A stretch of DNA of 34,720 nt, from positions 1 through 34,720 of IMG/VR virus record IMGVR_UViG_3300033233_001971, one strand, 5' to 3'. The notes under the pieces are model-generated. The model was not told the origin of the DNA and did not search any database. It saw nothing but the letters and a program-made list of their open reading frames with translations. Below, piece after piece: positions 8,749 through 34,228 of the stretch (position 1 is its first letter; every line of letters starts with the position of its first letter). The stretch comes from a virus. A program made the position numbers and the translations under genes.

Positions 8749-8771
8749 CCCCTGTTTCTGTTGTTCTCAGA

Positions 8772-11287: not shown

Positions 11288-11289
11288 AT

Positions 11290-11325
11290 CTCAATTAGTA
11301 GTTATATAAACAAACTAATTAGAGG
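11290..11325 (+). promoter_or_regulatory. Late-type motif (11297-11311) inside a hairpin covering the next ribosome-binding site
   Basis: Motif AGTAGTTATATAAAC is the most divergent copy. CTC plus AATTAGT (11290-11299) pair with ACTAATT plus GAG (11314-11320, 11322-11324) with a one-base bulge; the right arm ends in the AGAGG that serves ATG 11334. Confidence 0.55.
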
Positions 11326-11333
11326 TTTAAATA

Positions 11334-11573
11334 ATGGGTACACAGAACAAAACAAATAATTTTAATAAAACAAAAGCTGATACCCTATATCAGCCTATAT
11401 TTACAACCGAACAAGCAGCAGTTATAAACGGCAGCAATGCTGATAGTCTACATACTCATGATTTAAGCAGCAAGGCAGCAGCAAATATTATAACCTTTGC
11501 AGCAAATGAGACAGAAGAGACAGCAGCTTTTGATGCAGGAGCAAAAATTGTAATCAGGACAGATTTACTGTAA
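11334..11573 (+). CDS. Small fibre-like virion protein, 79 aa
   Basis: The segment NGSNADSLHTHDLSSKAAAN is common in phage tail fibres and collar fibres, where the HxH unit can bind metal in a trimeric stalk. The start of the protein (NNFNKTKADTLYQPIF) is also fibre-like. AGAGG precedes ATG 11334. It opens a five-gene cassette (11334-14443) between terL and gpW, a place where lambda has no genes. Probably a head or neck appendage component; assignment is by motif only. Confidence 0.5.
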   Translation: MGTQNKTNNFNKTKADTLYQPIFTTEQAAVINGSNADSLHTHDLSSKAAANIITFAANETEETAAFDAGAKIVIRTDLL

Positions 11574-11587
11574 GGAGATATCAGCAA

Positions 11588-12055
11588 ATGGTAAGCATAG
11601 GTAAAGGTGAATTTATAACAAAGGTTTTAGTAGAACCTGCTAACATAATTGGTTTTTTTGACCTATTAAAAAGCAAAGCAACAGATGAAATTAAGGCTGC
11701 TGAAATTGCATGGAATGAAAGCACAGAAATTCAGTTAGACAGCCCCTTTCTTCTTGGTATGGTAGATGGTTTTTTAACAGCCGGTGCTGTAAATCAAGCT
11801 GCTGTAGACCGTATGACAGCGTTAACAACTGCATTAGCCCGTGAAAAACACGCTACCGAAACACAGTTAGACCCTAAAACTATACCACTTAGAACCTTTA
11901 AGCTTAGTCTTTCAGCAGTTCCAGAAGGTGAACAGCCTTTAACATGGGTAACTAATTTTGTATCAAGTGACTGTTACCCCTATATAGAAGACGGTTTCAT
12001 AATAATTAAATTAATTGGGGTAGTTAATCACCCTGAAGCAGTGGAGGTATTTTAA
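11588..12055 (+). CDS. Hypothetical protein of the fibre cassette, 155 aa
   Basis: I do not recognise this protein. A helical first half (SKATDEIKAAEIAWNESTEI, NQAAVDRMTALTTALAREKH) is followed by a beta-rich half (SDCYPYIEDGFIIIKLIGVV). GGAGATATCAGCAA precedes ATG 11588. The stop overlaps the next start (TAATG), so it is coupled to the 301-residue protein and may be its chaperone or partner. Soluble; no signal peptide. Confidence 0.55.
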   Translation: MVSIGKGEFITKVLVEPANIIGFFDLLKSKATDEIKAAEIAWNESTEIQLDSPFLLGMVDGFLTAGAVNQAAVDRMTALTTALAREKHATETQLDPKTIPLRTFKLSLSAVPEGEQPLTWVTNFVSSDCYPYIEDGFIIIKLIGVVNHPEAVEVF

Positions 12056-12960
12056 TGTACGCAAGTTATTTTTATTCAGCAGGTGCAACAGCAGCAAACG
12101 TGCTTGCTGATATAGGGGCATTATTAACAGGCACAACAGACAAAGCTACATTATCAGCATCATGTAATCAATCAAGTACATCTATTGATGCTTCAGTTTA
12201 TACGGCTGCATGGACACTCCATGATGCTTCAGCAGGTACAAATGCGAAATGTTACAAAAGAGAATATCCTGATGACGCAACAAAATTTGCTTATTTGGTA
12301 GTTGATACAAATACATCAGGAAAAGTTCTCATGAAAGTATATGAAACATGGAATGCCGGAACTCATGCCGGAACAAACCTGTGTTATTACAGCGACCAGA
12401 CTGGGGGTTGTCCACAGGTGTCGCTTGCAGCGGGAGGCCAGATAGATATTTATTGCAATAATTATTGTGTTCTGATGGTGTCTTTATTTGGAGCAACTTA
12501 TGGTTCATCATCACAATTGGGATGGACAGGTTTATTTTTTAGAACAAGAAATTCAGCATGGGATACTGTAGCAAATGGATACCCACCATTTGCATGGGTA
12601 TGGTCATATGCAAGCAATGCTCCTTATTGTTATGCACCAAGAACCCTCAGTGCCGCAGGGGCGGATATTACAGGTGCAAACGCACCAATGAATTTATGCA
12701 CTATTTTTGGTCAAGGATTAATTGCACCTTCATTAACAGTTCCCGCAGCAGCCGATAAGACACTTAAACATTTACTGATACCTTTCTTTTTTTCATATTA
12801 TTCCACTGGAAATCTTGGGGGTGATGTTTCACAAAATGCTGATGTCTATATTACAAGTGCAAGTCTCGGCACTAATTTTGATGAATTTGAAATTGGGTCT
12901 AATAGATATGTCATATGGTCTTCTTCTTTAAATTACAGAATAGCTGTAAGAAAGGGTTAA
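12055..12960 (+). CDS. Putative virion surface or fibre protein, 301 aa
   Basis: A beta-rich protein full of Gly, Ser, Thr, Tyr and Trp (for example SAWDTVANGYPPFAWVWSYA) with six or more cysteines, as is common in receptor-binding or appendage proteins of gut phages. No signal peptide, no catalytic motif that I can name. GGAGG at 12041-12045 precedes ATG 12055, overlapping the previous stop. Being in the middle of the cassette with a coiled-coil fibre downstream, it is likely the exposed part of an appendage; this is inference from composition and place. Confidence 0.5.
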   Translation: MYASYFYSAGATAANVLADIGALLTGTTDKATLSASCNQSSTSIDASVYTAAWTLHDASAGTNAKCYKREYPDDATKFAYLVVDTNTSGKVLMKVYETWNAGTHAGTNLCYYSDQTGGCPQVSLAAGGQIDIYCNNYCVLMVSLFGATYGSSSQLGWTGLFFRTRNSAWDTVANGYPPFAWVWSYASNAPYCYAPRTLSAAGADITGANAPMNLCTIFGQGLIAPSLTVPAAADKTLKHLLIPFFFSYYSTGNLGGDVSQNADVYITSASLGTNFDEFEIGSNRYVIWSSSLNYRIAVRKG

Positions 12961-12963
12961 GTT

Positions 12964-13140
12964 ATGGCTGATTTAGGAAATATAGGCTATATGTTATCTG
13001 CACCAAACTTATCTGGTGATATATTAACCTACTATTCAATATTGTATAGCAATTCGTTTTATTGGGTAGTAACTTCTAACTCTGCTAAGGCAGGTGTTGC
13101 AAGGGTAAGAATTGACGGTGTAGTTAAGTTTTTATACTAA
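12964..13140 (+). CDS. Small hypothetical protein, 58 aa
   Basis: MADLGNIGYMLSAPNLSGDI continues as a beta-rich, tyrosine-rich chain ending in VVKFLY. An AAAGGG in the end of the previous gene lies at proper distance and the gene fills the gap between its neighbours (three bases before, 13 after), so it is probably real. Possibly a small virion part of the cassette. Confidence 0.5.
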   Translation: MADLGNIGYMLSAPNLSGDILTYYSILYSNSFYWVVTSNSAKAGVARVRIDGVVKFLY

Positions 13141-13153
13141 AGGAAATACTGAA

Positions 13154-14443: not shown

Positions 14444-14468
14444 CCCACAGTTACAAACCCACTTAAGA

Positions 14469-14496
14469 AGCAGGGAATAAACCCCCTGCTTTTTTT
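14469..14496 (+). terminator. Terminator closing the fibre cassette
   Basis: AGCAGGG (14469-14475) pairs with CCCTGCT (14484-14490), followed by a run of T to 14496. The next late-type motif begins at 14524. Confidence 0.8.
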
Positions 14497-14515
14497 ATTG
14501 CCTGAAATCTCTGTT

Positions 14516-14559
14516 ACCTCATGAGTATTTATTACATAACGCAAATTAATTAATGAGGT
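14516..14559 (+). promoter_or_regulatory. Late-type motif (14524-14538) between arms that pair over the gpW ribosome-binding site
   Basis: Motif AGTATTTATTACATA. ACCTCAT (14516-14522) just upstream pairs perfectly with ATGAGGT (14553-14559), which contains the Shine-Dalgarno of the gene starting at 14568. Confidence 0.65.
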
Positions 14560-14567
14560 TTCAATAT

Positions 14568-14834: not shown

Positions 14835-14835
14835 T

Positions 14836-16389
14836 ATGAAAAAATCATTTAAAGAAAGACTAGCTAACCGTTTTGGATATGGCAAACAAACCCAAAAAAG
14901 AAACCGTTATGAATCGGGTTTAGTAACCCGTTTAAATAGTTCTTGGTTAACTAATAACCAGAGTGCAGACGCTGAATTATTAAACAGCCTCAATAAGACC
15001 CGTGCAAGGGCAAGAGATTTAAGCATCAATAACGATTATGCAAGAAATTATCTTAGAAGCCTTGTAACTAACACCATAGGTGCAACCGGCATAGGTTTTC
15101 AGAATAAAGCTAAAAAAAGAAATGGGGATTTAGACGAAGTAAATAACACAATTACAGAAGCAGCTTTTTCAGATTGGGGTAATGTCTCTAACTCTCCGGA
15201 TGTTACAGGTAAACTTTCTTTTCTTGATATTCAGAAAGCTGTTTTAAAAACTGTTGCCCGTGACGGTGAAGTAATCGTATTAATTAAAAAGAACTATAAA
15301 AATAAATATAAATTTAGCCTTCAGGTTTTGGAATGTGATTATTTAGACGAAACCTTAAATAAGCAGCTTGAAAACGGCAGCAGTATAAGAATGGGGGTAG
15401 AGGTTGACCAGTGGGGAAAGGTACAAGCTTATCATTTATTCCAAAATAACCCAGCTGATAACGGCTGGTTACACAGCACAGGACAGAGATATATAAGAGT
15501 ACCAGCAGCAGAGATTATACACCTTTACGATATAGAAAGGGTATCTGCTACCCGTGGGATATCATGGCTGCATAGTTCAATACAACGGCTGTACATGCTT
15601 CAGCAGTATGAAGAGGCTGAACTAACAGCAGCCCGTATATCAGCAGCTAAAATGGGCTTTTTTGAAAGCCCTGATGGTGGCGAACAATATACAGGTGATG
15701 CAGTAGACACAGACGGCAGCATAATTTCAGACGTGGAACCTGGGGCAATGGAGACATTACCAGCAGGTTATAAATTTACCGCCTTTGACCCACAACACCC
15801 AGCAGGAAACTTCAGCCCCTTCTGTAAACATCTTCTAAGAAGTATTGCAGCCGGTTTAGGTGTTTCCTATGTAGCCCTAACAGGTGATTTATCAGAAGGT
15901 AATTATGGAAATGTTAGAGCAGGTTCTATTTTAGAAAGGGATAATTTTAAAGTTGTTCAAAATTGGTTCATGCAGAACTTTATAGCCCGTGTATATGCGG
16001 AATGGTGGGCTGTATATTTAATGCTTCCTTCATGCCCTTTTAAAGTTACAGATGCAGATAGACTTTTTCAGCCTAAGTTTACAGCTAGGGGTTATCAGTG
16101 GATAGACCCGCTTAAAGACAGCAAAGCACAGGCTGAAGCCATTGCAGCCGGTCTTATAAGTAGAACGGAATTACTTGCTGAACAAGGTAAGGACTTTCAG
16201 GAAGTAGTAGAGCAGATAGCAGCTGAACACGCAACCCTTGCAGCATTAGGTTTATCTTTTGATTTATCAAATACTCTTGTTTCCGTGGAAACCATGAATA
16301 GTCAGGTAGATAAACAGGAAGAAGTGCAGGTTATTAAAGATGAGTCTGTACCGGCTGAACCTGTAAAGAAGAAAGTTAAAGCTAAATAG
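14836..16389 (+). CDS. Portal protein, lambda family, 517 aa
   Basis: Forms the dodecameric ring through which DNA passes. Typical lambda-portal features: an N-terminal R/S/N-rich start, ARARDLSINNDYARNYLRSL and TIGATGIGFQNKAK near 55-100, ARDGEVIVLI near 145, IIHLYDIERVSATRGISWLH near 230, and SEGNYGNVRAGSI near 350, then a Lys-rich C-terminal tail. Unlike phages where portal and protease are separate neighbours, the protease here is fused to the capsid, beyond an HNH insertion. The stop codon TAG overlaps a late-type motif. Confidence 0.92.
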   Translation: MKKSFKERLANRFGYGKQTQKRNRYESGLVTRLNSSWLTNNQSADAELLNSLNKTRARARDLSINNDYARNYLRSLVTNTIGATGIGFQNKAKKRNGDLDEVNNTITEAAFSDWGNVSNSPDVTGKLSFLDIQKAVLKTVARDGEVIVLIKKNYKNKYKFSLQVLECDYLDETLNKQLENGSSIRMGVEVDQWGKVQAYHLFQNNPADNGWLHSTGQRYIRVPAAEIIHLYDIERVSATRGISWLHSSIQRLYMLQQYEEAELTAARISAAKMGFFESPDGGEQYTGDAVDTDGSIISDVEPGAMETLPAGYKFTAFDPQHPAGNFSPFCKHLLRSIAAGLGVSYVALTGDLSEGNYGNVRAGSILERDNFKVVQNWFMQNFIARVYAEWWAVYLMLPSCPFKVTDADRLFQPKFTARGYQWIDPLKDSKAQAEAIAAGLISRTELLAEQGKDFQEVVEQIAAEHATLAALGLSFDLSNTLVSVETMNSQVDKQEEVQVIKDESVPAEPVKKKVKAK

Positions 16390-16402
16390 TATTTATAACA
16401 TC
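16388..16402 (+). promoter_or_regulatory. Late-type motif AGTATTTATAACATC
   Basis: Copy of the motif overlapping the portal stop codon. It is followed within 20 bases by a terminator, so any transcript from it would be about 50 nt unless read-through occurs. Confidence 0.55.
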
Positions 16403-16421
16403 AAGTAACCACTTTTCTCTA

Positions 16422-16453
16422 AAAACCCCTTAACTGCAATGGTTAGGGGTTTT
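16422..16453 (+). terminator. Terminator after the portal gene
   Basis: AAAACCCC plus TAAC pair with GTTA plus GGGGTTTT (one bulged T in the left arm). Loop sequence and arms resemble those at 19501 and 22055. Confidence 0.75.
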
Positions 16454-16464
16454 ACTTTCTCAGA

Positions 16465-16479
16465 AGTACTTATTACAGA
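16465..16479 (+). promoter_or_regulatory. Late-type motif AGTACTTATTACAGA in front of the HNH gene
   Basis: Copy of the motif, 86 bases upstream of the HNH ribosome-binding site. TTCTCAGA precedes it as at 8772. TATTACAGAG at its end resembles TATTTACAGAGG at the other side of the HNH gene (17531). Confidence 0.6.
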
Positions 16480-16572
16480 GATAGTTTTAAGTGATTACTT
16501 GATAAATACCCACCTAAAACAATCTTCACTAATTTTATTAGTTTAATTATTTTTATTTAGTGAGGTTGTACC

Positions 16573-17493
16573 ATGCCATATAAAGACCCTGAAAAAAGAA
16601 AAGCCTACAACAGAAGACCTGAAGTTAAAGAGAGAAATAATATTCGCAACAAAAAAAGGTATGCTGAAAATAGGAATACTATTCTTAGCAAAAGAAGAAA
16701 CCAATATAAAGAGGATGAAAAAACAAGGGAAAGAATATCAGTAGAGGGTAAAGCATGGAGAGATGCTAATAAAGATACCATTAGCATCAAGAACAAAGAC
16801 AATTACAATAAAAATCCTACGTTATACAATCTAAGAGCTAAACAGTATAGAGAAACTAACCCTGAAGTAGCCTTAAATTATAGAGCATCTGAAAGGACTA
16901 AATGGGTTCAGTGGTTCACTGATTTAGGTTATACATACTGTACTGATTGCAATAAAGAATACCCTTTTGCAGCTTTAGACTTTCATCATATAGAACCCAC
17001 TACTAAGACTACGGATGTAGCACGGTTATACGCTGGTCAAGCTTTTAACGCTAGAAATATAGATAGAGTCAAGGAAGAACTAAGTAAATGTGTGTGTGTC
17101 TGTAGGAATTGTCATGCTGAATATCGGGCTTTACCTGCTATGTCTCAACAACAAATAAGAAAAGAGCAGTGGTATATATGGTTAAAAAATAATGGCTATG
17201 GTGAATGCTTTAGTTGTGGGTTTGATAAATCAATGATTTCTATAGACTATCATCATATAAATATGACTGAGAAGGAATATGCAATATCAAGATTAATCAA
17301 GGTAGACCTAAATGGTAATAAAAAAAGTAAAATGCGAGAAGCTTTATATAATGAAATAAAAAAATGCATACCTTTATGTTCCTCCTGTCATGCAGTTCTT
17401 CACACAGATAAGGTTATTTCAAGTGATACAAAAAAAATAACCCTCGTAAATAAATTAACAATCATTCAGGACAGATTAAAAATAGCAGCCTAA
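16573..17493 (+). CDS. HNH endonuclease with two HNH modules, 306 aa
   Basis: A probable homing endonuclease inserted between portal and capsid. The first 110 residues are very basic and repetitive (many KR, YK and RN units), probably DNA binding. Two zinc-HNH units follow: C123-x2-C126, DFHH 136-139, C177-x2-CH 181; and C212-x2-C215, DYHHIN 225-230, C269-x2-CH 273. Each is preceded by a similar helix with W (KWVQWFTDLGY, QWYIWLKNNGY). GAGGT precedes ATG 16573. Late-type motifs lie on both sides. Confidence 0.88.
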   Translation: MPYKDPEKRKAYNRRPEVKERNNIRNKKRYAENRNTILSKRRNQYKEDEKTRERISVEGKAWRDANKDTISIKNKDNYNKNPTLYNLRAKQYRETNPEVALNYRASERTKWVQWFTDLGYTYCTDCNKEYPFAALDFHHIEPTTKTTDVARLYAGQAFNARNIDRVKEELSKCVCVCRNCHAEYRALPAMSQQQIRKEQWYIWLKNNGYGECFSCGFDKSMISIDYHHINMTEKEYAISRLIKVDLNGNKKSKMREALYNEIKKCIPLCSSCHAVLHTDKVISSDTKKITLVNKLTIIQDRLKIAA

Positions 17494-17495
17494 TA

Positions 17496-17510
17496 AGTAT
17501 TTATATCAAA
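17496..17510 (+). promoter_or_regulatory. Late-type motif AGTATTTATATCAAA
   Basis: Copy of the motif right after the HNH stop codon and 35 bases before the next copy. Confidence 0.55.
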
Positions 17511-17530
17511 GCTTAAAATTTAATCTTAAT

Positions 17531-17545
17531 AGTATTTATTTACAG
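17531..17545 (+). promoter_or_regulatory. Late-type motif AGTATTTATTTACAG before the protease-capsid gene
   Basis: Copy of the motif that runs directly into the AGAGGA ribosome-binding site of ATG 17553. Confidence 0.65.
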
Positions 17546-17552
17546 AGGATTT

Positions 17553-19487
17553 ATGAAACTAGACAAAATAACAACCGGCATACTTAATAGAAGCTTTACA
17601 TTAGATAATTCAGTAACTTCTAACTTAGATGATAGAACCCTTACCTTTACTTTTAGTTCTGAAGCTCCATGTGTTAGGACTTTTGGAATTGAAGTGCTTG
17701 ACCATTGCCCTACCTCAGTTAATCTTGATAGAGCTAACAGCGGTTCACCTTTACTCTTAGAACATGACCCATTACAACAAATAGGCATTATTGAGGCTGC
17801 ATATATTCAAGATGGTAAAGGGGTTGCGAAGGTTAGGTTTAGTAAATCTACTAAGGCTGATGAAATTTATCAGGACTGTTTAGACAACATACGTAGAAAT
17901 ATTTCCGTTGGTTACTACGTTCATGAAATGTATGAAGACGGTGCAGAAGGTGATAACCCTATATATAGGGTTACATCTTGGGAAGTCTTAGAAATATCAG
18001 TTGTATCTATCCCAGCGGATATAACAGTAGGTGTAGGCAGGGGTTTTGATGATAAGCATGAAACAATTGTTAGAAATTTAGAAATTGAAACAGAAATAAA
18101 TAATAACTCAGAAGTAATTATTAATGAAGCAGAAATTAACACAGAAACCGTTATAGAAGAAAACAGCATCTTAGATGCTGAAACCAATTTAAAAGAAGTC
18201 AACACGCTTACTGATAGTTTTAAGCCTCTTGACGATACAACAAAACCAACAGGAGGTTTTAAAATGTCAGAACAGGAAGTTAATCCCGCAGTTGAGATTT
18301 TAGAAATCGCAACTAAACACAATCAGATAGACTTAGCAAAAAGGGCTATCGCAGAAGGCAAGACAGTAGCAGAGTTTAAGGGCATGGTACTTGAGACTAT
18401 GGGAACCCCTAAACCCGCAAGCACTGTAGAGCTTACCGCAAAAGAGGAAAGACAGTACTCTATCATTAACGGTATTAATAGCAGCCTTAATAACACAAAG
18501 AGTTTTGAACGTGAAATCAGTGATGAGATAGCAAAGAAAAGCGGTAGAGAAACCCGTGGTTTGCTTATGCCTCTTACCATTGGCAACAGGGCCGGTATGT
18601 CTGTTAGTGGTTCTTCAGGTGCTGCCGGTGGTTACACTGTTGCAACTCAGACCATGCCTTTGATTGAACTTTTAAGAAATAAGCTTGCAGTTCAGACAAT
18701 GGGTGCAACTTTCCTTTCCGGTCTTCAGGGCAACATTGCTTTTCCTCGTCAGTCTTTGGCAAATACCCTTGCATGGACTACTGAAGGTGTAGACGCTAAC
18801 AATGCCGGAGCAATGGGCTTTCAAACTGTTCCTATGTCCCCCCGCACCGCTATGGCAACAACCGGTTATACACATCAGTTACTTGCACAATCAAGTATTG
18901 ATATTGAAAACCTTGTCAGACAAGACCTTGTAACAATTATGGCTCTTGGTATTGATGCTGCTGCTATCTTCGGAACCGGTGACAATGGACAGCCTTTAGG
19001 ACTTATCAACGTTGACGGTATCGGCGTAGTTGAAGCAGGTTCTTCACCTTATGCAGACGGTAATACTTTAACGTGGGCTAATGTTGTTGCCCTTGAAACC
19101 GCAGTAGCTGCAAAGAATGCTGATATTGAAAACCTTGGTTACCTCACAAATGCTAAAGTTCGTGGTTTGCTTAAATCAACCGCTAAGTATGCTAATACCG
19201 GTAACCCTATTTGGGAGAACGACACGGTAAACGGTTACAAAGCATTTGCATCTAATCAGGTGCCTTCAGACCTTTCCAAAGGTAGCAGCAACGGTATTCT
19301 TTCCGCTGCAATCTTCGGTAACTGGACTGATTTGATTGTGGGTACATGGGGAAATGCAGTTGAATTGATCGTTGATCCTTACAGCCTCAAGAAGGCAGGA
19401 CAGGTAGAGATCACAGCAATTATCCTTTGTGATGTTGCAATTGAGCACCCTGAATCATTCGCTGTATGTCTTGACATTCTCGCTTAA
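17553..19487 (+). CDS. Prohead protease-major capsid protein fusion, 644 aa
   Basis: Residues 1-165 are an HK97-type (U35) prohead protease: LLLEHDP with H71, RNISVGY with S118 and WEVLEISVVSIPAD with E147 as the likely catalytic triad. An acidic, Asn/Glu-rich linker (about 175-235) leads to the capsid part: delta-like helical scaffold (240-330), then HK97 coat (about 345-644) with GGYTVATQTMPLIELLRNKL, PRQSLANTLAWTTEG and GDNGQPLGLINVDG. Protease and coat genes are usually separate. An internal AGGAGG and ATG 18264 (residue 238) can yield coat alone. Confidence 0.92.
   Translation: MKLDKITTGILNRSFTLDNSVTSNLDDRTLTFTFSSEAPCVRTFGIEVLDHCPTSVNLDRANSGSPLLLEHDPLQQIGIIEAAYIQDGKGVAKVRFSKSTKADEIYQDCLDNIRRNISVGYYVHEMYEDGAEGDNPIYRVTSWEVLEISVVSIPADITVGVGRGFDDKHETIVRNLEIETEINNNSEVIINEAEINTETVIEENSILDAETNLKEVNTLTDSFKPLDDTTKPTGGFKMSEQEVNPAVEILEIATKHNQIDLAKRAIAEGKTVAEFKGMVLETMGTPKPASTVELTAKEERQYSIINGINSSLNNTKSFEREISDEIAKKSGRETRGLLMPLTIGNRAGMSVSGSSGAAGGYTVATQTMPLIELLRNKLAVQTMGATFLSGLQGNIAFPRQSLANTLAWTTEGVDANNAGAMGFQTVPMSPRTAMATTGYTHQLLAQSSIDIENLVRQDLVTIMALGIDAAAIFGTGDNGQPLGLINVDGIGVVEAGSSPYADGNTLTWANVVALETAVAAKNADIENLGYLTNAKVRGLLKSTAKYANTGNPIWENDTVNGYKAFASNQVPSDLSKGSSNGILSAAIFGNWTDLIVGTWGNAVELIVDPYSLKKAGQVEITAIILCDVAIEHPESFAVCLDILA
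18198..18266 (+). promoter_or_regulatory. Internal stem-loop leader and strong ribosome-binding site for separate capsid synthesis
   Basis: GTCAACACGCTT (18198-18209) can pair with AAGCCTCTTGAC (18222-18233) with two C-C mismatches; AGGAGG (18251-18256) follows and ATG 18264 is in frame with the fusion. The same stem halves and a GGAGG stand before the tail-tube gene (21019-21067). The protein linker encoded here is not conserved-looking, which fits a former intergenic leader. Confidence 0.65.
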
Positions 19488-19500
19488 TTAACCCTTAACA

Positions 19501-19535
19501 AAAACCCTCTTAGCCTAACGGTTAAGGGGGTTTTT
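19501..19535 (+). terminator. Terminator after the capsid gene
   Basis: Fifteen paired bases: AAAACCCTCTTAGCC (19501-19515) with GGTTAAGGGGGTTTT (19520-19534), including two G-U pairs, loop TAAC, followed by T. Confidence 0.85.
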
Positions 19536-19538
19536 ATT

Positions 19539-19564
19539 TCTCGTTTGTATTTATTTAAAGGAGA
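19539..19564 (+). promoter_or_regulatory. Late-type motif (19546-19560) in the loop of a hairpin over the next ribosome-binding site
   Basis: Motif TGTATTTATTTAAAG. TCTCGTTT (19539-19546) pairs with AAAGGAGA (19557-19564) apart from one mismatch; the right arm is the Shine-Dalgarno of ATG 19574. Confidence 0.6.
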
Positions 19565-19573
19565 CTAACAAAC

Positions 19574-20127: not shown

Positions 20128-20129
20128 CA

Positions 20130-20603
20130 ATGGAAACAATCAGACAGCAGATTATTAATTATCTCGATACAATCTTTAAGGGTATTCAAGTAGACCCCGA
20201 CCCTTACGCACCCACGAATTATAACTATTCTATTGATGAAGTTTTCTGTTGGGCGACAGATTACATACCCCGTGAAAGTACAATCACGCTGCTTTACAGG
20301 GACACAGACGAAACCACAGAACCCTTAACCATTGGCAGGGGCAGCTTTGACCAACACAGGTTAACTGTAGAGGTAGATATTATCTCTGCTTTAGTCAATA
20401 ACACGGCTGCTGATGCACGGTTGATGCTTGCAGACCTAAACAAGGCAATAGGGCAGGACTTTAGCCTTGGTGGTCTTGCACAGTCTACAAGTGTTACAAG
20501 CAATACAATTAGCGTGATGAAAGAGGAAACGCAGATTGTAAACCTGTCTGTAAATCTACAAATAACGTATATAACCAAGTCATATAATCTGTATGAAAAG
20601 TAA
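20130..20603 (+). CDS. Tail terminator-like protein, 157 aa
   Basis: By position (after the connector, before the tube) and by mixed alpha/beta layout with a long central strand pair (HRLTVEVDIISALVNN) followed by a helix (AADARLMLADLNKAIG) and two final strands (IVNLSVNLQITYIT), this looks like a tail terminator of the gpU type, which ends tail growth and joins tail to head. The primary sequence alone is not decisive. The end overlaps a late-type motif copy. Confidence 0.55.
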   Translation: METIRQQIINYLDTIFKGIQVDPDPYAPTNYNYSIDEVFCWATDYIPRESTITLLYRDTDETTEPLTIGRGSFDQHRLTVEVDIISALVNNTAADARLMLADLNKAIGQDFSLGGLAQSTSVTSNTISVMKEETQIVNLSVNLQITYITKSYNLYEK

Positions 20604-20613
20604 TTATTACAGG
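20599..20613 (+). promoter_or_regulatory. Late-type motif AGTAATTATTACAGG
   Basis: Copy of the motif that overlaps the stop of the previous gene and the AGGAG ribosome-binding site of ATG 20628. Confidence 0.55.
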
Positions 20614-20627
20614 AGATAAATTTAACT

Positions 20628-20994: not shown

Positions 20995-21018
20995 AACTCT
21001 TCATTAAAACAAGAAACA

Positions 21019-21067
21019 GTCAACACGCTTTTTAAGCCTCTTGACATATAACGGAGGCTATAAAATG
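21019..21067 (+). promoter_or_regulatory. Stem-loop leader and ribosome-binding site of the tail-tube gene
   Basis: GTCAACACGCTT (21019-21030) pairs with AAGCCTCTTGAC (21034-21045) around TTT, with two C-C mismatches, followed by CGGAGG (21052-21057) and ATG 21065. It is the twin of the element inside the protease-capsid gene at 18198. Confidence 0.65.
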
Positions 21068-22030
21068 GCACAAGCAATGGGCAGCAAAGGACAGTTAGGA
21101 ATACAAATAGAAACGGCTTTTAATACAAATCCGGTTACCCCTGATTTGCAGTTAATCAACTTCACAACAGAGTCTGTGAAGTCAAGTCAAACCCTTAACG
21201 ATTCAAAGGTTATAAGGTCTTCACGTAACCCTATGAAACCTGTTATAGGTAAGAAGGAAATCAGCGGGACTATTAGCACAGAATTAAATTCAAGTATCGG
21301 CACACTTTTACATTGTGCATTAGGTGCAGTGACTACAACCGGTGCAGGATCACCTTATACGCACGTTGTTAAAATCGGTACTTCTTTACCTTCATTTGTA
21401 CTTGAAAAAGGTTTTACGGATATTTCCCAATTTGCACTTTACACAGGCTGTAAGATCAATAAAATGACTATGGGTGCAAAGGGTGATAGTTTTGATGATA
21501 TTTCCTTTGACCTCTTAGGAGCTAAGGAAACAATTTCAGGAACAAGCTTTGATGCAACCCCTACAGCTATAACCTTTGCACCTTTCAGCGGTTTCAGTGC
21601 AGCTATAGAAGAGGGTGGAAGCACCATAGCAAACGTTATAGAGATCGGGACAATTACCGTAGAGAATAACCTTGACGGTAACGTGTACTGTCTTGGTAGT
21701 AACGGCGAACGTGTAAGCCTTCCTGAAGGGGCTGTTAAGGTATCCGGTTCAATGGCTGCTATGTTTGAAAACCTTACCCTTTTGAACAAGGCAAAAAACA
21801 GCACAGAATCAAGCCTTAAGATCACATGGAGCAACGGAACAGGAGCAGGAACAGTAGGTAATGAGTCTTTAGAGATATTCATACCTGAACTTATCTACAG
21901 CCCTTCAACCCCGACTATTACGGGTGCAACGGGTATCAGAGTGGAACTGTCTTGGGTTGCGTTTTACGACAACAATGCAGATGCAACAGCTATTAAGGCT
22001 ACCCTCATGTGTCCACAGGCTGTTATCTAA
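21065..22030 (+). CDS. Major tail tube protein, 321 aa
   Basis: The sequence begins MAQAMGSKGQLGIQIETAFN and continues with NDSKVIRSSRNPMKPVIGKK and EISGTISTELNSSIGTLLHC, the pattern of the phage tube protein family with a beta-sandwich that polymerises into the tail tube; a second half (PFSGFSAAIEEG, NLDGNVYCLGSNGERVSLPE) and a C-terminal WVAFYDN strand complete it. ATG 21065 has GGAGG at ideal distance; the in-frame TTG at 21041 lies inside the leader hairpin and is rejected. A terminator follows at 22055. Confidence 0.85.
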   Translation: MAQAMGSKGQLGIQIETAFNTNPVTPDLQLINFTTESVKSSQTLNDSKVIRSSRNPMKPVIGKKEISGTISTELNSSIGTLLHCALGAVTTTGAGSPYTHVVKIGTSLPSFVLEKGFTDISQFALYTGCKINKMTMGAKGDSFDDISFDLLGAKETISGTSFDATPTAITFAPFSGFSAAIEEGGSTIANVIEIGTITVENNLDGNVYCLGSNGERVSLPEGAVKVSGSMAAMFENLTLLNKAKNSTESSLKITWSNGTGAGTVGNESLEIFIPELIYSPSTPTITGATGIRVELSWVAFYDNNADATAIKATLMCPQAVI

Positions 22031-22054
22031 CCCACGTTTATTAATCCTTACCTG

Positions 22055-22088
22055 AAACCCTCTTTACTGCAACGGTAAAGAGGGTTTT
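22055..22088 (+). terminator. Terminator after the tail-tube gene
   Basis: AAACCCTCTTTAC (22055-22067) pairs perfectly with GTAAAGAGGGTTT (22075-22087), followed by TT. It closely resembles the terminators at 16422 and 19501. Confidence 0.85.
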
Positions 22089-22099
22089 TCTTTGTCAAT

Positions 22100-22114
22100 T
22101 GTATTTATTACATA
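22100..22114 (+). promoter_or_regulatory. Late-type motif TGTATTTATTACATA
   Basis: Copy of the motif 12 bases after the tail-tube terminator and about 60 bases before the tail-chaperone start. Confidence 0.65.
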
Positions 22115-22175
22115 GTCACGTATCTTTTAGATACCCCGCTATGAAGCACAAAAAAAGGTAGGAGAACAACAGAAC

Positions 22176-22556: not shown

Positions 22557-22888
22557 TTGCCTATACGCAATTCTTGTACGGTGATAAAGGTAAATTCTGC
22601 ATAGCTTGCAGGAAGACCGCAGACAAGTTACAGAAAGAATTAGATTGTGATACATGCCCTGATAAGCAACCTGATATTGACGATGATATCAGGTTGCTTA
22701 TCAGGGTTTTTAATTTATGTGATTCACAAGTAAGGGTTGCAATGAGTGGGGTTTTTGCTTTGGATTGGCCCACGGTAATAATTGTAGCGCAAGCACATGA
22801 CATAGAAATTAACTCTGACTTCTTTCAATACCTCAGATTGTTTGAGCAAACCTATATTGCAGAGACAACCAAGAAGAAACCCACATAA
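22541..22888 (+). CDS. Tail assembly chaperone, T extension, made by -1 frameshift
   Basis: The reading frame is -1 relative to the G gene, open from the A run and has no ATG or ribosome-binding site at its beginning (first possible start a TTG at 22574), so it is best read as the C-terminal part of a G-T fusion of about 237 residues made by slippage on A AAA AAA. The encoded part has four cysteines in zinc-like spacing (FCIACRK, CDTCPDKQ) and a helical end. A perfect 21-bp inverted repeat lies inside it (22657-22706). Confidence 0.75.
   Translation, partial: KKNSLIAYTQFLYGDKGKFCIACRKTADKLQKELDCDTCPDKQPDIDDDIRLLIRVFNLCDSQVRVAMSGVFALDWPTVIIVAQAHDIEINSDFFQYLRLFEQTYIAETTKKKPT
22657..22706 (+). 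repeat. Perfect 21-bp inverted repeat with T run, inside the T coding frame
   Basis: Left arm 22657-22677 (starts CCCTGATAAGCAAC), eight-base loop 22678-22685, right arm 22686-22706 (ends GGTTGCTTATCAGGG), no mismatch; TTTTT follows at 22707-22711. In RNA it would be an extremely stable hairpin of terminator type within an open frame. Confidence 0.85.
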
Positions 22889-22895
22889 CCCTAAA

Positions 22896-22910
22896 AGTAT
22901 TTATTGATAG
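22896..22910 (+). promoter_or_regulatory. Late-type motif AGTATTTATTGATAG before the tape-measure gene
   Basis: Copy of the motif just after the T stop codon and 43 bases before ATG 22939. Confidence 0.6.
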
Positions 22911-22938
22911 AGTAAATAAACATCAAGGATAAAACATA

Positions 22939-26967: not shown

Positions 26968-26977
26968 GCAGTAACAG

Positions 26978-27025
26978 AAACCCTCATTAGTATTTATCTA
27001 TATCAAATACTAATGAGGGTTTTTT
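26978..27025 (+). terminator. Perfect 18-bp hairpin: terminator, late-type motif and ribosome-binding-site lock in one
   Basis: The left arm 26978-26995 includes CCCTCATTAGTATTT, the right arm 27005-27022 includes AAATACTAATGAGGG, with a nine-base loop and six T. The motif AGTATTTATCTATAT (26989-27003) lies in the left arm and loop. The right arm holds the GAGGG Shine-Dalgarno of ATG 27027, so the T run lies between ribosome-binding site and start codon. Confidence 0.8.
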
Positions 27026-27026
27026 A

Positions 27027-27650: not shown

Positions 27651-27659
27651 CGTGGGTAG

Positions 27660-27702
27660 CCTCATTAGTAATTATTCATATAAACATTAATTACTAAAGA
27701 GG
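27660..27702 (+). promoter_or_regulatory. Late-type motif (27667-27681) in a hairpin covering the next ribosome-binding site
   Basis: Motif AGTAATTATTCATAT. CCTCATTAGTAATTA (27660-27674) pairs with TAATTACTAAAGAGG (27688-27702) with one A-A mismatch; AGAGG is the Shine-Dalgarno of ATG 27710. No T run follows, so this is not a terminator. Confidence 0.7.
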
Positions 27703-27709
27703 TTATACA

Positions 27710-28282: not shown

Positions 28283-30876
28283 TGGCAACCCTCGTTAATT
28301 ATAAAGACCCGTTAGGTTACCTGCCTTCTAAACCAATAACGGTACAGCCTACAGCACCTTCAAGCCCTGCTATCCCTGCTACACCATCTATCAGAGAAGT
28401 GAATGTAAGCCCTGCTGATGGTGTTGTACCGCTTGCATATGGTAGACGTAAGCTACAGGGTAAGTTTGTATACCTGAATGTCTTAAACGGCAATTTACAC
28501 GCTATTTACATATTCTGTGAAGGTGAAATAGCGGGGTTTGAAAGCATCTATCTTGATGACAAACCTATTAGCGGTTTTGGCGGGGTTACCTATGAGGTAA
28601 AAACAGGGGCAATAGATCAAAACGTTTGCAGTCTTCATAGTTATGATTCAGGATGGAATGAAAACCTTAGAGGGACAGCTTACGTTTATTTAATTATCCC
28701 TTCAGGGTCTGAACTTAATGACCTACCAAAAGTATCGGCAATTGTTCAGGGTAGGAAAGTATATGATTATAATTATGATCCTACCTTAACAGCTACCGTG
28801 TATTCTACAAACCCTGTACTGCATTTGATTGATTTACTGATAGACAAACGCACGGGCGGCAGGATACCTAAGACTAAAATAAATTGGACTGCTGCAAAAG
28901 CTACACAGCTTTATTGTGAAAGCCTATATACTTGCGGGTTTGTCTTTGAAACAGCTTCGACATTGAAAGAAGTAATTGACGTGGTTAAGGTTCATTTCTT
29001 GGGTGCTGTGCTATTCGAGAACGGCAATTATAAAATTGATTGCGGAAGGCCCGACAGGTTAACACTTACTTCATTTAGTGACGCAGAAATCAGCGGGGTT
29101 AATATCCCTGCCGTATCATCTAAAGACCTGATTAACCGGATTACATGGACTTACCTAGACCCTGTTACATTTGAGACAGTAAACCAAAATTTAGAAAGTG
29201 CTACCATTGCTGCAAATGATGCAGAGATAGCAGAGGCAAATTATAATTTAGTTGGTTTTACTTCTCTTCAACAGTCAACGGCTATAGCTACATTCTTACT
29301 TAATCAAAGGCTGTCTGATTTAACGGTTACCTTTAACACTCATAATTCAAAGGGTTTGATGCCTCTTGATATATTCACGCTTACGCACTCGATAGGCTTA
29401 ACAGCAAAGAAAATGTATTGCATGGATATTAAGGAAAATGCAGATGGTTCATGGAGTATAACCGCAAAAGAGTATGATGAAGCTTTCTTTTCAAGCACGG
29501 TGATTGATGAGCCGTGCTATCCTGATACGGCATTGCCCGACCCTTACAGCATACCTGATGACGTTGTACAGGATACCCCGACTGAAGACTTAGTACAGCT
29601 TCTTGATAGCACATGGATAAGCAACCTTAACTTTTCTTGGTCTTGTTCCTTCCCGTGGGTTAAACACTACGAAGTATGGATTAAGCAGGATTCAGGCAGC
29701 TATGCATTAAAAGGAACTACAACAACTACTTCATGGCAAATAACAGCAGCAAAGGAACTATCTTATTTTTCTGTAAAGATCATTGCTGTATCGCAATGGA
29801 ATATTAAATCAGCGGGGGGAACCACGGCAATTAAAACGGTTCAGGCAATCGGTAAAGGATACCCGCCTGTGTGGAAAGGTGGTGCAGCACTGACAGTGCA
29901 GGAAAGCGGTGATATTGTTTTCCTTCAATGGTTCATGCCTGATAACACAGACCCTGCTACAGATATAGATATATCCGGTTATGAAATCAGAAGGGGCAGG
30001 AGTACCGACACATGGGAAACAGCAGCCTTTGTAGACCGTGTTAAAGCCCTTGCATATCAAGATAGAAATTGTCCTTCCGGTGATTGGGTTTATTTTGTAA
30101 AGTGTGTGGATACCGTGCGAAATTACACAACGACAGCTTTAACAGCTTCGGTTACCGTTACTTTAAATCCTTTCTTGGGGTTTCAACAGGTACGGCAGCT
30201 TGACCTAGCAGGAAGCACGGGTAGCAATATTATTGTTTTCGGCGGGGATACAATCGCACCAATTACCGCAAGTTATGACATGCTAGGCGAAAGGTTCAAC
30301 GGTACTTTGTTGGGTGATGGTGTAGGCGGTGCTTATACGTACCTTGTTAATCCTTCAGCAAGTACTGCTGATGCAACTACCCCTGATGCTACTAAAGTTG
30401 ATTTAGGGGCTGTTGTAGGCGGTAAATGGACACTGTACTACACAGCACCTAAGATAGGCAGCGGTACAGCTTCAGTAACCCCACATTTGCTTTTATCTAA
30501 TGATGGTAGCAGCTGGACTGATTATAATGCATCTTCTGCTGTTGCTGCTTCTGCTAGGTATTGTAAAGCAAAATTTGTTTTTAGTTCATCTGCATTAGAT
30601 TCTACATACACGGTGCAAGAACCCGTATATATAAACATCAAGGCAGACCCATTACAGGAATATGGAGAAGCAACGGTAACAGGTTCAGGCAGCATTGCTA
30701 TTACTTTTAATAAATCTTTTGTCAGCATTGAGAAAATACAGCTTACGGCAGCGGGAACAGCAGCCCGTATAGCTACGTATGACAATCTAACCTTAACTGG
30801 ATTTACCTTAAAGCTGTATGACCAAGCAGGAACGGCTGTAGCAGGTACGGTTAAATGGATTGTAGACGGTTATTAG
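28282..30876 (+). CDS. Tail tip attachment protein J-like, 864 aa
   Basis: The central tail-tip protein that would contact the host receptor. The N-terminal half has the TipJ/phage-tail hub layout: VPLAYGRRKLQGKFVYLNVL near 50, a long hub region with VYSTNPVLHLIDLLIDKRTG near 175, and CMDIKENADGSWSITAKEYD near 375; then fibronectin-III-like units (about 440-620) with repeated W and Y, and a C-terminal beta-rich domain that probably binds the host. Shorter than lambda gpJ (1132 residues). No NlpC/P60 gpK gene precedes it. The stop overlaps a late-type motif. Confidence 0.85.
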   Translation: MATLVNYKDPLGYLPSKPITVQPTAPSSPAIPATPSIREVNVSPADGVVPLAYGRRKLQGKFVYLNVLNGNLHAIYIFCEGEIAGFESIYLDDKPISGFGGVTYEVKTGAIDQNVCSLHSYDSGWNENLRGTAYVYLIIPSGSELNDLPKVSAIVQGRKVYDYNYDPTLTATVYSTNPVLHLIDLLIDKRTGGRIPKTKINWTAAKATQLYCESLYTCGFVFETASTLKEVIDVVKVHFLGAVLFENGNYKIDCGRPDRLTLTSFSDAEISGVNIPAVSSKDLINRITWTYLDPVTFETVNQNLESATIAANDAEIAEANYNLVGFTSLQQSTAIATFLLNQRLSDLTVTFNTHNSKGLMPLDIFTLTHSIGLTAKKMYCMDIKENADGSWSITAKEYDEAFFSSTVIDEPCYPDTALPDPYSIPDDVVQDTPTEDLVQLLDSTWISNLNFSWSCSFPWVKHYEVWIKQDSGSYALKGTTTTTSWQITAAKELSYFSVKIIAVSQWNIKSAGGTTAIKTVQAIGKGYPPVWKGGAALTVQESGDIVFLQWFMPDNTDPATDIDISGYEIRRGRSTDTWETAAFVDRVKALAYQDRNCPSGDWVYFVKCVDTVRNYTTTALTASVTVTLNPFLGFQQVRQLDLAGSTGSNIIVFGGDTIAPITASYDMLGERFNGTLLGDGVGGAYTYLVNPSASTADATTPDATKVDLGAVVGGKWTLYYTAPKIGSGTASVTPHLLLSNDGSSWTDYNASSAVAASARYCKAKFVFSSSALDSTYTVQEPVYINIKADPLQEYGEATVTGSGSIAITFNKSFVSIEKIQLTAAGTAARIATYDNLTLTGFTLKLYDQAGTAVAGTVKWIVDGY

Positions 30877-30889
30877 TATTTATTGTATC
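30875..30889 (+). promoter_or_regulatory. Late-type motif AGTATTTATTGTATC
   Basis: Copy of the motif overlapping the J stop codon, 12 bases before the AAGGAG that serves ATG 30917. Confidence 0.65.
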
Positions 30890-30916
30890 AAGTTAAATTT
30901 AAGGAGTTAATTATAT

Positions 30917-31867: not shown

Positions 31868-31880
31868 GGAGATATAGAAA

Positions 31881-32606
31881 ATGATTGCAGCTTTAATGTC
31901 AAAACTTACACAGCTTAGAACAGGCTTAACAGATGCAAGGATGGGCTACATTGATAAGTTAAATCTTACGGGGAAAGCTACAGATGATTCTATCTATACT
32001 TCAGCCCGTGCTACAAAGATAGATAACTTAGACGCTGCTATTAGTACACGTGCAGCAGCGTCTACTGCCCTTTCTAATGTGCAGTATACAACCGCACGGG
32101 CCGCACGTATGGATAATATTTTCCCCCAATTTGGGAAAGTAAAAGTTGAAGCTAATGCACTTGCGTATGCTTCAGGTATGGTTGTTACATCAAGGACAGA
32201 TTACACTGCCGGATTTTCATTGCCAGGATGGTCAGCAGGTAACCTGATAGCGGATAGAAAACTAGGTTACAGGATGGTAGGCAGCAACAGCACAGCAACA
32301 GATTTTGATGTACTTAATGTCTCAGGTGTTTCAGGTTGGTTATTAGGAGTATGCACAGTTAATAGCCATGCATCAACGGCTTATAATTCAACAAACGTAA
32401 AACTAACGGTTGATGGCACGTTGATGATAAATTCAGGCAGTACTAGCGTTGTAGCAAAAAGTGCAATTATCCCTTTTGGGTGGTCTGATGGAAACTTAAT
32501 ATTTCCTATGTATTGGATGGGTATTAGGTTTGAATCAAGCTTGAGGTTGCAGACCACAATGGCGAATGCTTCACTGCTTAATTATTGTGTTTACTTATTG
32601 GATTAA
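31881..32606 (+). CDS. Tail fibre-like protein, 241 aa
   Basis: The N-terminus is a helical shaft (LTQLRTGLTDARMGYIDKLN) followed by SARATKIDNLDAAISTRAAA and YTTARAARMDNIF, the same type of LDNLDA-rich repeat seen in the 429-residue fibre at 13154. The C-terminal 150 residues are a beta-rich domain with many Gly and Ser. AAGGAG precedes ATG 31881. Likely the tail fibre or side spike that works with the J-like tip. Confidence 0.7.
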   Translation: MIAALMSKLTQLRTGLTDARMGYIDKLNLTGKATDDSIYTSARATKIDNLDAAISTRAAASTALSNVQYTTARAARMDNIFPQFGKVKVEANALAYASGMVVTSRTDYTAGFSLPGWSAGNLIADRKLGYRMVGSNSTATDFDVLNVSGVSGWLLGVCTVNSHASTAYNSTNVKLTVDGTLMINSGSTSVVAKSAIIPFGWSDGNLIFPMYWMGIRFESSLRLQTTMANASLLNYCVYLLD

Positions 32607-32620
32607 GGAGAAAAATATAA

Positions 32621-32965
32621 ATGGCAAATTTAATTTCAAGTTCAGAAGTAATAGAAGGTGAAAATATTTTTATAGTAGAGGTTTATGACAACGGTGGTAC
32701 TATAAAGTATGTTAAACCCGCTGTTGTTGTTGAAACCACAGTAAGGGTTATTACCCGCTATGCATTTAGGACAAGGTTTACAACCGCTGAAATGGTAGGA
32801 CTATACACGGCAGCAGGTGCAGACCCCGTATTAAAAATGTTTATAGATGATGTAACGGTAGCAGACAATATTAATTTAGATGAAGCAAGGGTTTCAGAGG
32901 GTCTTGATTATTTAGTGAGTCAGGCGATAATTACCGCAGAGAGAAAAGCGGAAATCTTAAGTTAA
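32621..32965 (+). CDS. Hypothetical protein after tail fibre, 114 aa
   Basis: Not recognised. A small beta start (FIVEVYDNGGTIKYVKPAVV) is followed by helices (EMVGLYTAAGADPVLKMFID, LDEARVSEGLDYLVSQAIIT). Position right after the fibre gene suggests a fibre chaperone or small virion component. TAAGGAG precedes ATG 32621. Soluble; no membrane segment. Confidence 0.6.
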   Translation: MANLISSSEVIEGENIFIVEVYDNGGTIKYVKPAVVVETTVRVITRYAFRTRFTTAEMVGLYTAAGADPVLKMFIDDVTVADNINLDEARVSEGLDYLVSQAIITAERKAEILS

Positions 32966-32985
32966 GGGATTGGGGATAGATAATC

Positions 32986-33321
32986 ATGGATACAGCAAAA
33001 ATAATTGAAATAGCGGTGTTAGTTCTCTTCTCAATTGTGGGGTTTCTTGCTTCCCGCACCTTGGTAGGGATTGACAAGAATCAGCGGGACTTGACCGAAA
33101 AACTAGCCAAAATGGAAACCCGATTTGATACGCATATAGAGACTATACCCCGTGAATTTGTTACTAAGATTGAGTGCAGACTATCTAAAGAAGAGTGTGT
33201 AGGCAAAGGGTGGGTTGCAGCAGTGCAGCGGTTAGAGGATTCATTTAATCATAAATTCGATGAACTGAATAAAACGATGCATGATTTTACTCTAGCGGTT
33301 ATGGCAATCATAAAGGATTAG
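32986..33321 (+). CDS. Membrane-anchored coiled-coil protein, lysis region, 111 aa
   Basis: An N-terminal membrane segment (about 5-25, IIEIAVLVLFSIVGFLASRT) is followed by charged coiled coil (RDLTEKLAKMETRFDTHIET) with two cysteines (C64, C71) and a second helix. The layout fits holin-associated or XhlA-like proteins, but not enough to name it. GGGGATAGATAATC precedes ATG 32986; the holin-like gene starts one base after its stop, so it is part of the lysis operon. Confidence 0.6.
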   Translation: MDTAKIIEIAVLVLFSIVGFLASRTLVGIDKNQRDLTEKLAKMETRFDTHIETIPREFVTKIECRLSKEECVGKGWVAAVQRLEDSFNHKFDELNKTMHDFTLAVMAIIKD

Positions 33322-33322
33322 T

Positions 33323-33589
33323 ATGAAGAGATTAAAGCGGGTATGGTTTGACGTGTGCATGTTTGCCTTTGTTGGTTTCATGCTGTTTACATTCCCCACA
33401 GAAAAACAGGGTTTGCAGTTATTCCTTTATAAAGCCCTGTTAGTCAATGCCGGTTTTCTCCATTGTCATATAACAAGGAAGTTGTGTTTTCCGTACATTG
33501 ATTTTAGATCAGAAAAGGAATGGTCTAATAACCTGTTAGTTATATCTTTATATATCGTTTTCATTTGGGCATATGCAAAGGGCGGGTAA
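33323..33589 (+). CDS. Putative holin, 88 aa
   Basis: A basic start, then two or three membrane segments (about 8-24, 30-48 and 68-85) and the run YKALLVNAGFLHCHITRKLCFPYIDF, which resembles a group of phage holin-like proteins. It would permit the transglycosylase to reach the peptidoglycan. It begins one base after the previous stop and overlaps the endolysin start by 17 bases, the usual holin-endolysin coupling. Confidence 0.7.
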   Translation: MKRLKRVWFDVCMFAFVGFMLFTFPTEKQGLQLFLYKALLVNAGFLHCHITRKLCFPYIDFRSEKEWSNNLLVISLYIVFIWAYAKGG

Positions 33590-34190
33590 ATTGGCAATGG
33601 CAGCAGTCTTTATACTGTTGGTAGCTGTAAAGGTATCGGCTTTAGATCGCTGTCAGGAATTTGTGCAGGAAGTCAGGACAGCAAACACTTTTTACAATGG
33701 CTTAAATTATCCGTATTGGTACGGGGTAGGGCAGCTTAAAACGGAATCAGGATGCAGGTCAGACCTTACCGCCTTTGATGGTGGGCAAGGGTTAGCGCAA
33801 TTCATGCCGGTTACTATGGCAGCTATTAACAAAATCTGTACCCGCTGTCATTTGCAAAAGCTGAACCCTTACAAACCCGCTGATTCTATAAAGGCTGCTG
33901 CATATCTGATAGCACAAAACCACAGGACTAATTTTGCACCTGATAAACCCATGTGGATTGATTACCAAAGTTATAACGGTGGGGCTGCATTGCTTAAAAA
34001 GGAATATCAACGGGCGGGGAAAGCAAACCATGAATTAATGCGGGTACAATGCAAGCGCAACATAATAACGCTGAAGTCAGGGAAGTTACTTAATTTGTGT
34101 GATGTAAATTATGACTACTCACGGCACATTTATGATTATGCAAAACCCTACCGATTGACCACAGATCAAACCCCCTTTAATTTCTGGTAA
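33573..34190 (+). CDS. Lytic transglycosylase endolysin with N-terminal signal or anchor, 205 aa
   Basis: An SLT/goose-lysozyme-type muramidase that breaks the glycan strand. The N-terminal hydrophobic segment (9-24) reads as signal peptide or signal-anchor. The catalytic region has YWYGVGQLKTESGCRSD with E58 as the likely catalytic acid, then GGQGLAQFMP (70-79) and YQSYNGG near 133. Start is uncertain: ATG 33573 overlaps the holin; TTG 33591 and ATG 33597 are alternatives closer to GGGCGGG. Two further cysteine pairs are consistent with a periplasmic enzyme. Confidence 0.85.
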   Translation: MQRAGKLAMAAVFILLVAVKVSALDRCQEFVQEVRTANTFYNGLNYPYWYGVGQLKTESGCRSDLTAFDGGQGLAQFMPVTMAAINKICTRCHLQKLNPYKPADSIKAAAYLIAQNHRTNFAPDKPMWIDYQSYNGGAALLKKEYQRAGKANHELMRVQCKRNIITLKSGKLLNLCDVNYDYSRHIYDYAKPYRLTTDQTPFNFW

Positions 34191-34191
34191 C

Positions 34192-34228
34192 CCTTGTTTG
34201 TATTTATTACATCAAATACACAAGGAGA
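34192..34228 (+). promoter_or_regulatory. Late-type motif (34199-34213) in a hairpin covering the next ribosome-binding site
   Basis: Motif TGTATTTATTACATC. CCTTGT and GTATTT (34192-34197, 34200-34205) pair with AAATAC and ACAAGG (34214-34225), with a two-base bulge; AAGGAG (34223-34228) is the Shine-Dalgarno of ATG 34236. Confidence 0.65.

Follow-up and report, generated by a model that had tools for sequence, protein, structure and literature searches.

A candidate one-box promoter element at transcription-unit boundaries of a temperate siphophage, built at about three genes into hairpins predicted to hide the Shine-Dalgarno sequence

Does a short motif that recurs at the gene boundaries of a temperate phage act as a promoter, and do the hairpins that contain some of its copies keep read-through RNA from being translated? 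The question is raised by the IMG/VR virus record IMGVR_UViG_3300033233_001971, whose whole length of 34,720 bp was analysed (the window) and which represents a temperate siphophage whose head and tail genes are of the lambda type. A first-pass annotation had described, at six genes, a late-type promoter motif set into a hairpin that covers the next Shine-Dalgarno sequence (SD), as at gene e of phage T4, and had suggested a general timing system. All six complementarities can be read in the sequence, but their strength is very unequal (z from -5.96 to -0.09). Our analysis points to a one-box promoter element at transcription-unit boundaries that would be built into SD-hiding hairpins at three of them, a reading that we consider evenly balanced between right and wrong. 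A T4 gene e-like architecture is thus partly supported for about three genes, and not as a general timing system. The three hairpins are:

26978..27024, plus strand: strongest putative lock, an 18-nt perfect inverted repeat AAACCCTCATTAGTATTT/AAATACTAATGAGGGTTT plus a T-run
27657..27705, plus strand: second putative lock, arms 27657-27674/27688-27705 of 18 nt, 89% complementary
11284..11330, plus strand: third putative lock, arms 11284-11299/11314-11330, 16 pairs with one bulge

Hairpin z-scores were obtained by comparing each fold with 200 shuffles; in a stricter control the extended motif and the stretch from SD to ATG were kept fixed and everything else was shuffled. The perfect inverted repeat at 26978-26995/27005-27022 has a z-score of -5.96 and a stricter-control p of 0.001, with the motif GTATTTAT (26990-26997) in its left arm and the SD GAGG (27015-27018) of gene 27027 in its right arm. 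Similar values are obtained for the hairpin at 27657 (z -5.02; stricter control p=0.001), where a motif variant, GTAATTAT (27668-27675), lies in the left arm and the SD GAGGT (27699-27703) of gene 27710 in the right. Here the right arm is changed to match the variant, with TAATTAC against AAATAC at 26990, which we read as a compensatory difference between two similar sites. In the hairpin at 11284 (z -3.50; stricter control p about 0.05), the variant GTAGTTAT (11298-11305) is located at the edge of left arm and loop, the SD GAGGT (11322-11326) belongs to gene 11334, and the terL stop codon (11285-11287) falls within the left arm.

Folding of both RNA versions, the short one starting about 6 nt past the motif, bore out the expectation of the first-pass annotation at these three sites: the SD is hidden with the left arm and freed without it, its unpaired probability rising from 0.00 to 0.67 (11298), 0.42 (26990) and 0.39 (27668). 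The folds argue firmly for a lock at 26990 and 27668, and a lock is probably formed at 11298.

Together these features suggest how the element might work. It comprises 16 bp, is directional, lacks a -35 box and is found at almost every transcription-unit boundary, and transcription would probably start about 5-7 nt downstream of it. At 11298, 26990 and 27668 it sits in the left hairpin arm and the right arm holds the next SD. RNA reading through from upstream would fold and hide the SD, at 26990 possibly terminating as well; RNA begun at the element would lack the left arm and be translated. The three hairpins would then insulate the downstream gene from read-through, which is the job of a separate terminator at five other boundaries. 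A bolder version, which we hold only tentatively and regard as rather unlikely, is that this is a previously undescribed class of one-box promoter, with promoter, terminator and lock fused in one hairpin, and that the locked genes are expressed only from their own start and never from read-through.

The remaining three sites named by the first-pass annotation are less convincing:

34192..34227, plus strand: weak candidate lock, CCTTGT..GTATTT/AAATACACAAGG, before small membrane protein gene 34236 in the lysis region
14516..14559, plus strand: weak candidate lock, 7-bp clamp ACCTCAT/ATGAGGT, before head-tail joining gene 14568
19539..19564, plus strand: claimed lock, unsupported in its context, directly behind the terminator 19500-19535

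At 34192-34205/34214-34225, 12 pairs (-10 kcal/mol, z -0.93; stricter control p=0.31) join the region of the motif (34200-34207) to that of the SD AAGGAG (34222-34227) of gene 34236. The site at 14516-14522/14553-14559, with motif 14525-14532 and SD 14555-14559, has 7 pairs around a 30-nt loop (z -0.09; stricter control p=0.63), and an intrinsic terminator (about 14467-14494; stem -14.7 kcal/mol) lies just upstream of its motif. At 19539-19546/19557-19564 there are 7 pairs with a mismatch (stricter control p=0.14), with the motif at 19547-19554 and the SD AAGGAG at 19558-19563. Removal of the left arm raised the SD unpaired probability from 0.00 to 0.52 (14525), from 0.49 to 0.94 (19547) and from 0.23 to 0.97 (34200). 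The SD at 19547 is thus partly free even with the arm present, and it is 65% unpaired in its 70-nt natural context because the terminator 19500-19535 is in the way.

With motif and SD fixed, pairing at 14525, 19547 and 34200 is no better than in shuffles, because the conserved CT(C)A of the motif itself complements GAG(G). The left arms CTC, CCTCAT and TCTC largely coincide with the conserved 5' half of the motif, so that the match to the SD comes for free. This bears on the possibility that all the apparent locks arose by chance and motif composition, without selection, an account that would also fit the background pairing at nine other sites. Since chance cannot yield inverted repeats of 18 nt such as those at 26990 and 27668 (each p=0.001), it is refuted there and, as an explanation of the whole, highly improbable; it stands for 14525 and 19547 and probably for 34200.

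Whether the motif itself is a promoter was judged from its sequence and placement. Alignment of 20 intergenic copies gave the consensus [C/G]TnAnWAGTA(T/C)TTATT, directional and, with 16 bp, longer than described in the first-pass annotation. As the copies were picked by their core, the perfect conservation of the core is partly so by definition; this does not apply to the CT and the A that flank it. For GTAYTTAT the counts are 21 on the plus and 2 on the minus strand, for WGTAYTTATW 16 and 0. With a profile score of at least 17 as cut-off, 19 windows were counted forward (coding strand) and 0 in reverse, the best reverse window (14.0) being the right arm of the 26990 hairpin. To the right of 6308, 15 intergenic gaps measure 40 nt or longer, and 14 of these contain the motif; the pattern GTANTTAT is enriched in intergenic DNA (p about 4e-15). 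No -35 region emerges from the aligned copies. Copies other than those in the six hairpin sites are:

3043..3058, plus strand: motif copy 3050, GTACTTAT, before early-region gene 3093
3610..3625, plus strand: motif copy 3617, GTACTTAT, before early-region gene 3664
7448..7463, plus strand: motif copy 7455, before gene 7494; a minus-strand sigma-70-like promoter (7452-7423) crosses it
7851..7866, plus strand: motif copy 7858, between terminator 7824-7854 and ATG 7872 (+7 after the motif)
8523..8538, plus strand: motif copy 8530
8766..8781, plus strand: motif copy 8773; terS ATG at 8785
16382..16397, plus strand: motif copy 16389, overlapping the stop codon of the portal gene; the HNH-cassette terminator 16427-16449 comes next
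16459..16474, plus strand: motif copy 16466, behind terminator 16427-16449 and before HNH gene 16573
17490..17505, plus strand: motif copy 17497, before protease-capsid gene 17553
17525..17540, plus strand: motif copy 17532; SD GAGG begins 5 nt further on
18107..18122, plus strand: motif-like copy 18114, GTAATTAT, score 17.0, within the protease-capsid gene, upstream of the internal capsid start at about 18265
20593..20608, plus strand: motif variant 20600, GTAATTAT; SD 3 nt after
22094..22109, plus strand: motif copy 22101, behind terminator 22054-22088
22890..22905, plus strand: motif copy 22897, before tape-measure gene 22939
30869..30884, plus strand: motif copy 30876, sharing bases with the stop codon of a gene whose end is at 30876; gene 30917 follows

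Because the same element precedes the early-region genes 3093, 3664 and 7494 (copies 3050, 3617 and 7455), the label "late-type" is unjustified. On the coding strand GTA(T/C)TTAT resembles the reverse complement of the T4-like ATAAATACT element and not ATAAATACT itself.

The suggestion that the motif is a promoter element fared well, being consistent with its strand bias, its placement in gaps, the terminators upstream and its spacing to SD and ATG. Intrinsic terminators lie directly upstream of five copies (7858, 14525, 16466, 19547 and 22101), and the end of the terminator plus the motif at 22101 is 85% identical to 19517-19555. Between the terminator end at 7854 and ATG 7872 the motif is the only promoter candidate that fits; if it is a promoter, the message from 7858 would be leaderless with its ATG exactly at +7. 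A purine is found at +7 after the motif in 17 of 20 copies (p=0.005, uncorrected for the positions looked at), and an SD or ATG start always follows at a distance of at least 3 nt. The motif is hence best read as a -10-type promoter element; from its sequence, strand bias and placement and from the hairpins we infer promoter activity, the start point and the effect on translation. Sigma-70 promoters for the structural genes were rejected, as the scan yields fewer sites than shuffles and lists no plus-strand sigma-70-like site in the five gaps between terminator and motif. A divergent promoter pair at the hairpins was likewise rejected, because the right arms do not preserve an intact motif in reverse (best score 14.0). 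A literature search on the motif as a phage promoter gave nothing usable.

The same distribution could be that of an asymmetric repressor site that blocks transcription in the lysogen. Such stoperators number more than 20 in mycobacteriophage L5, asymmetric, uniformly oriented with transcription and located in short intergenic gaps (PMC9283540), which makes them a serious rival: the phage is temperate, and its approximately 20 asymmetric sites have one orientation relative to transcription, occupy short gaps between genes, early and late alike, and in some cases overlap stop codons. Behind the five intrinsic terminators, though, a second block would be redundant and would leave the downstream genes without a promoter, and the AT-rich TATTTAT core, the purine at +7 and the minimum distance to SD or ATG look like those of a start site. 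No protein shown to be such a repressor was found, and we consider a repressor site quite unlikely.

Several observations weigh against a promoter element built into SD-hiding hairpins. Over 15 sites, own upstream and downstream arms pair better than swapped arms (mean -7.3 vs -4.6 kcal/mol, p=1e-4), but this excess is due to the six named sites; the nine tested sites not named by the first-pass annotation show no excess pairing (p=0.36). Strongly hidden SDs without the motif in the arm exist at 4004, 16573 (HNH gene), 18265 and 21065, so that a general timing system does not follow from either set. Truncation also frees SDs at some unnamed sites (3050 and 22101); a freed SD alone is therefore no proof. 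Among the proteins scanned (Pfam, PHROGs) none was recognisable as a phage sigma factor or RNA polymerase, the scan covering part of the open reading frames (ORFs) of a record that may be incomplete. Searches with TerL, portal, DnaB, tail and capsid proteins in IMG/VR, GTDB and INPHARED gave no homologue with the strand-biased motif; the relatives are distant, with a terL identity of at most about 46% and of 53% for one short fragment.

Further, at 11298, 26990 and 27668 the stop codon of the preceding gene lies no further than about 11 nt from the start of the left arm, which a terminating ribosome could open. Translational-coupling hairpins likewise sequester the SD in a stem, with the left arm next to the stop codon of the upstream gene; their scheme does not include a promoter-like element in that arm. 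Under coupling, the SD would become accessible only when the left arm is melted by ribosomes at the end of the upstream gene, the downstream product would be made only if the upstream gene is translated, and the motif would be an independent promoter with an incidental position. The left arms start 0-11 nt after the stop codons at 11287, 26967, 27650 and 34190, close enough for ribosomes to open those at 11298, 26990, 27668 and 34200, which makes coupling a real rival, and SD locks without the motif include the internal capsid start at about 18265 in a continuous frame. Coupling leaves unexplained why the left arm should contain the motif and the right arm its complement, and the T-run at 26990 would terminate RNA whose hairpin stays closed. 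On balance, coupling appears unlikely.

The hairpin at 26978-27022 may also be simply a terminator. With an 18-bp G+C-containing stem followed by a T-run, 26978-27024 has the form of an intrinsic terminator, and its stem base AAACCCTC/GAGGGTTTTT is the same as in the canonical terminators at 19500 and 22054; the site can therefore be taken as a terminator into whose stem the promoter element has moved. If it were a plain terminator abutting the start codon by chance, and the other hairpins degenerate terminators, the SD pairing would be a by-product. We think this very unlikely, since 11298 and 27668 have no U-tract and the motif lies within the arm, whereas at other boundaries it follows the terminator.

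Some neighbouring features touch the locks and the motif. A leader (GTCAACACGCTT...TTTTAAGCCTCTTGAC...) is common to the internal capsid start (18190-18285) and gene 21065 (21005-21085); its GCCTC pairs with the downstream GGAGG, forming a second family of SD-hiding hairpins whose arms lack the motif. A single reading frame (17553-19487) encodes protease and capsid as a fusion, yet a full SD (AGGAGGT) and an in-frame ATG are kept at the junction at about 18265, which together with the upstream motif copy 18114 suggests that the capsid may also be synthesized separately. The region 16389-17540 is an HNH endonuclease cassette that seems to have been inserted downstream of the portal gene. It has a terminator of its own, is flanked on each side by motif copies and contains a hairpin that hides its SD (z -2.4); in this it resembles the homing endonuclease cassettes of T-even phages. 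Within it (16389-16509), an inverted 15-nt repeat, ATCAAGTAACCACTT/AAGTGATTACTTGAT, with copies 74 nt apart, flanks the terminator and the 16466 motif, and the right copy bears a reverse GTATTTAT.

The genes recognised in the window include:

867-2174: integrase
4004: DnaB-like helicase
9269: gpA-type terminase
14836: lambda-type portal
17553: fused S78 protease-capsid
28282: tail J-like protein
33573: SLT lysozyme
34391: Rz-like spanin (weak match)

No nucleotide relative was found among 50,697 phage records, and protein relatives are distant only. A tRNA search gave no hit, and no known RNA family was matched. The region 6308-7100, with repeated AGGAATTTTTTTG-like units and two near-identical CACTTGACAAAGTTAAC sequences (about 6310 and 6772) beside a helicase and an unassigned 253-aa protein, is the likely replication origin region. 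At 2892-2995 a good sigma-70-like promoter (TTGACT-18-TATAGT) lies no more than about 70 nt upstream of a terminator hairpin of very high stability (z -5.1); the segment contains no ORF and is a candidate small RNA, without an Rfam match. A 21-nt perfect inverted repeat followed by GTTTTT (22657-22706) is terminator-like and lies inside coding sequence, in ORF 22574-22888.

Motif-pattern scans of IMG/VR gave mostly single, chance-like matches. In the unrelated phage contig L244 there are several copies of TAGTATTTAT, but they run against the direction of most of the genes; read toward the genes they are the T4-like ATAAATACTA, and L244 was therefore rejected as a homologous user of the motif. 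A possible start in L244 is preceded by a long, perfectly paired hairpin, CCCTCATTAGTATTTATC...GATAAATACTAATGAGGG (L244:10030-10110, z -6.25), which, with an intact TAGTATTTAT/ATAAATACTA element in both arms, probably represents divergent T4-like promoters.

Among known systems, the L5 stoperators resemble the sites described here in number, asymmetry, single orientation, placement in short gaps and occurrence in a temperate phage, and differ in sequence and in the position of our sites behind terminators with start-site-like spacing; no repressor of that type was found here. The boundaries at 19500-19555 and 22054-22109, where a promoter element follows a terminator, share the stem base and the motif with 26978-27022, but at 26990 the element is inside the stem and not downstream. 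A close counterpart is T4, in which e, soc, 49 and I-TevI/II/III (also segB, and mobE of phage Aeh1) have a late promoter in the 5' strand of a hairpin that hides the ribosome-binding site (RBS); only RNA initiated upstream forms the helix that contains the SD or AUG (PMC3014915, PMC2988022). Hiding a promoter in an RBS-sequestering hairpin is thus not new as a principle. As in e, soc and I-TevI, a promoter-like element lies in the left arm and the SD in the right, and RNA started at the element is predicted to lack the left arm; sequestration of the SD in read-through RNA is predicted at 26990, 27668 and 11298 and does not exceed the control at 14525, 19547 and 34200. The T4 late promoter TATAAATA is read by gp55, and no sigma-factor family match was seen among the proteins scanned here. 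Unlike in T4, the hairpins are found in an unrelated temperate siphophage, the element is TAGTATTTAT-like and not TATAAATA, it precedes early as well as late genes, one of the hairpins is at the same time a terminator, and the arrangement is a predicted one. If it is true, the genome-wide one-box motif would represent a new class of phage promoter, a single hairpin could act as terminator, promoter and translational lock, and the T4 trick of placing a promoter in an RBS hairpin would have arisen independently in an unrelated temperate siphophage with a different promoter type.

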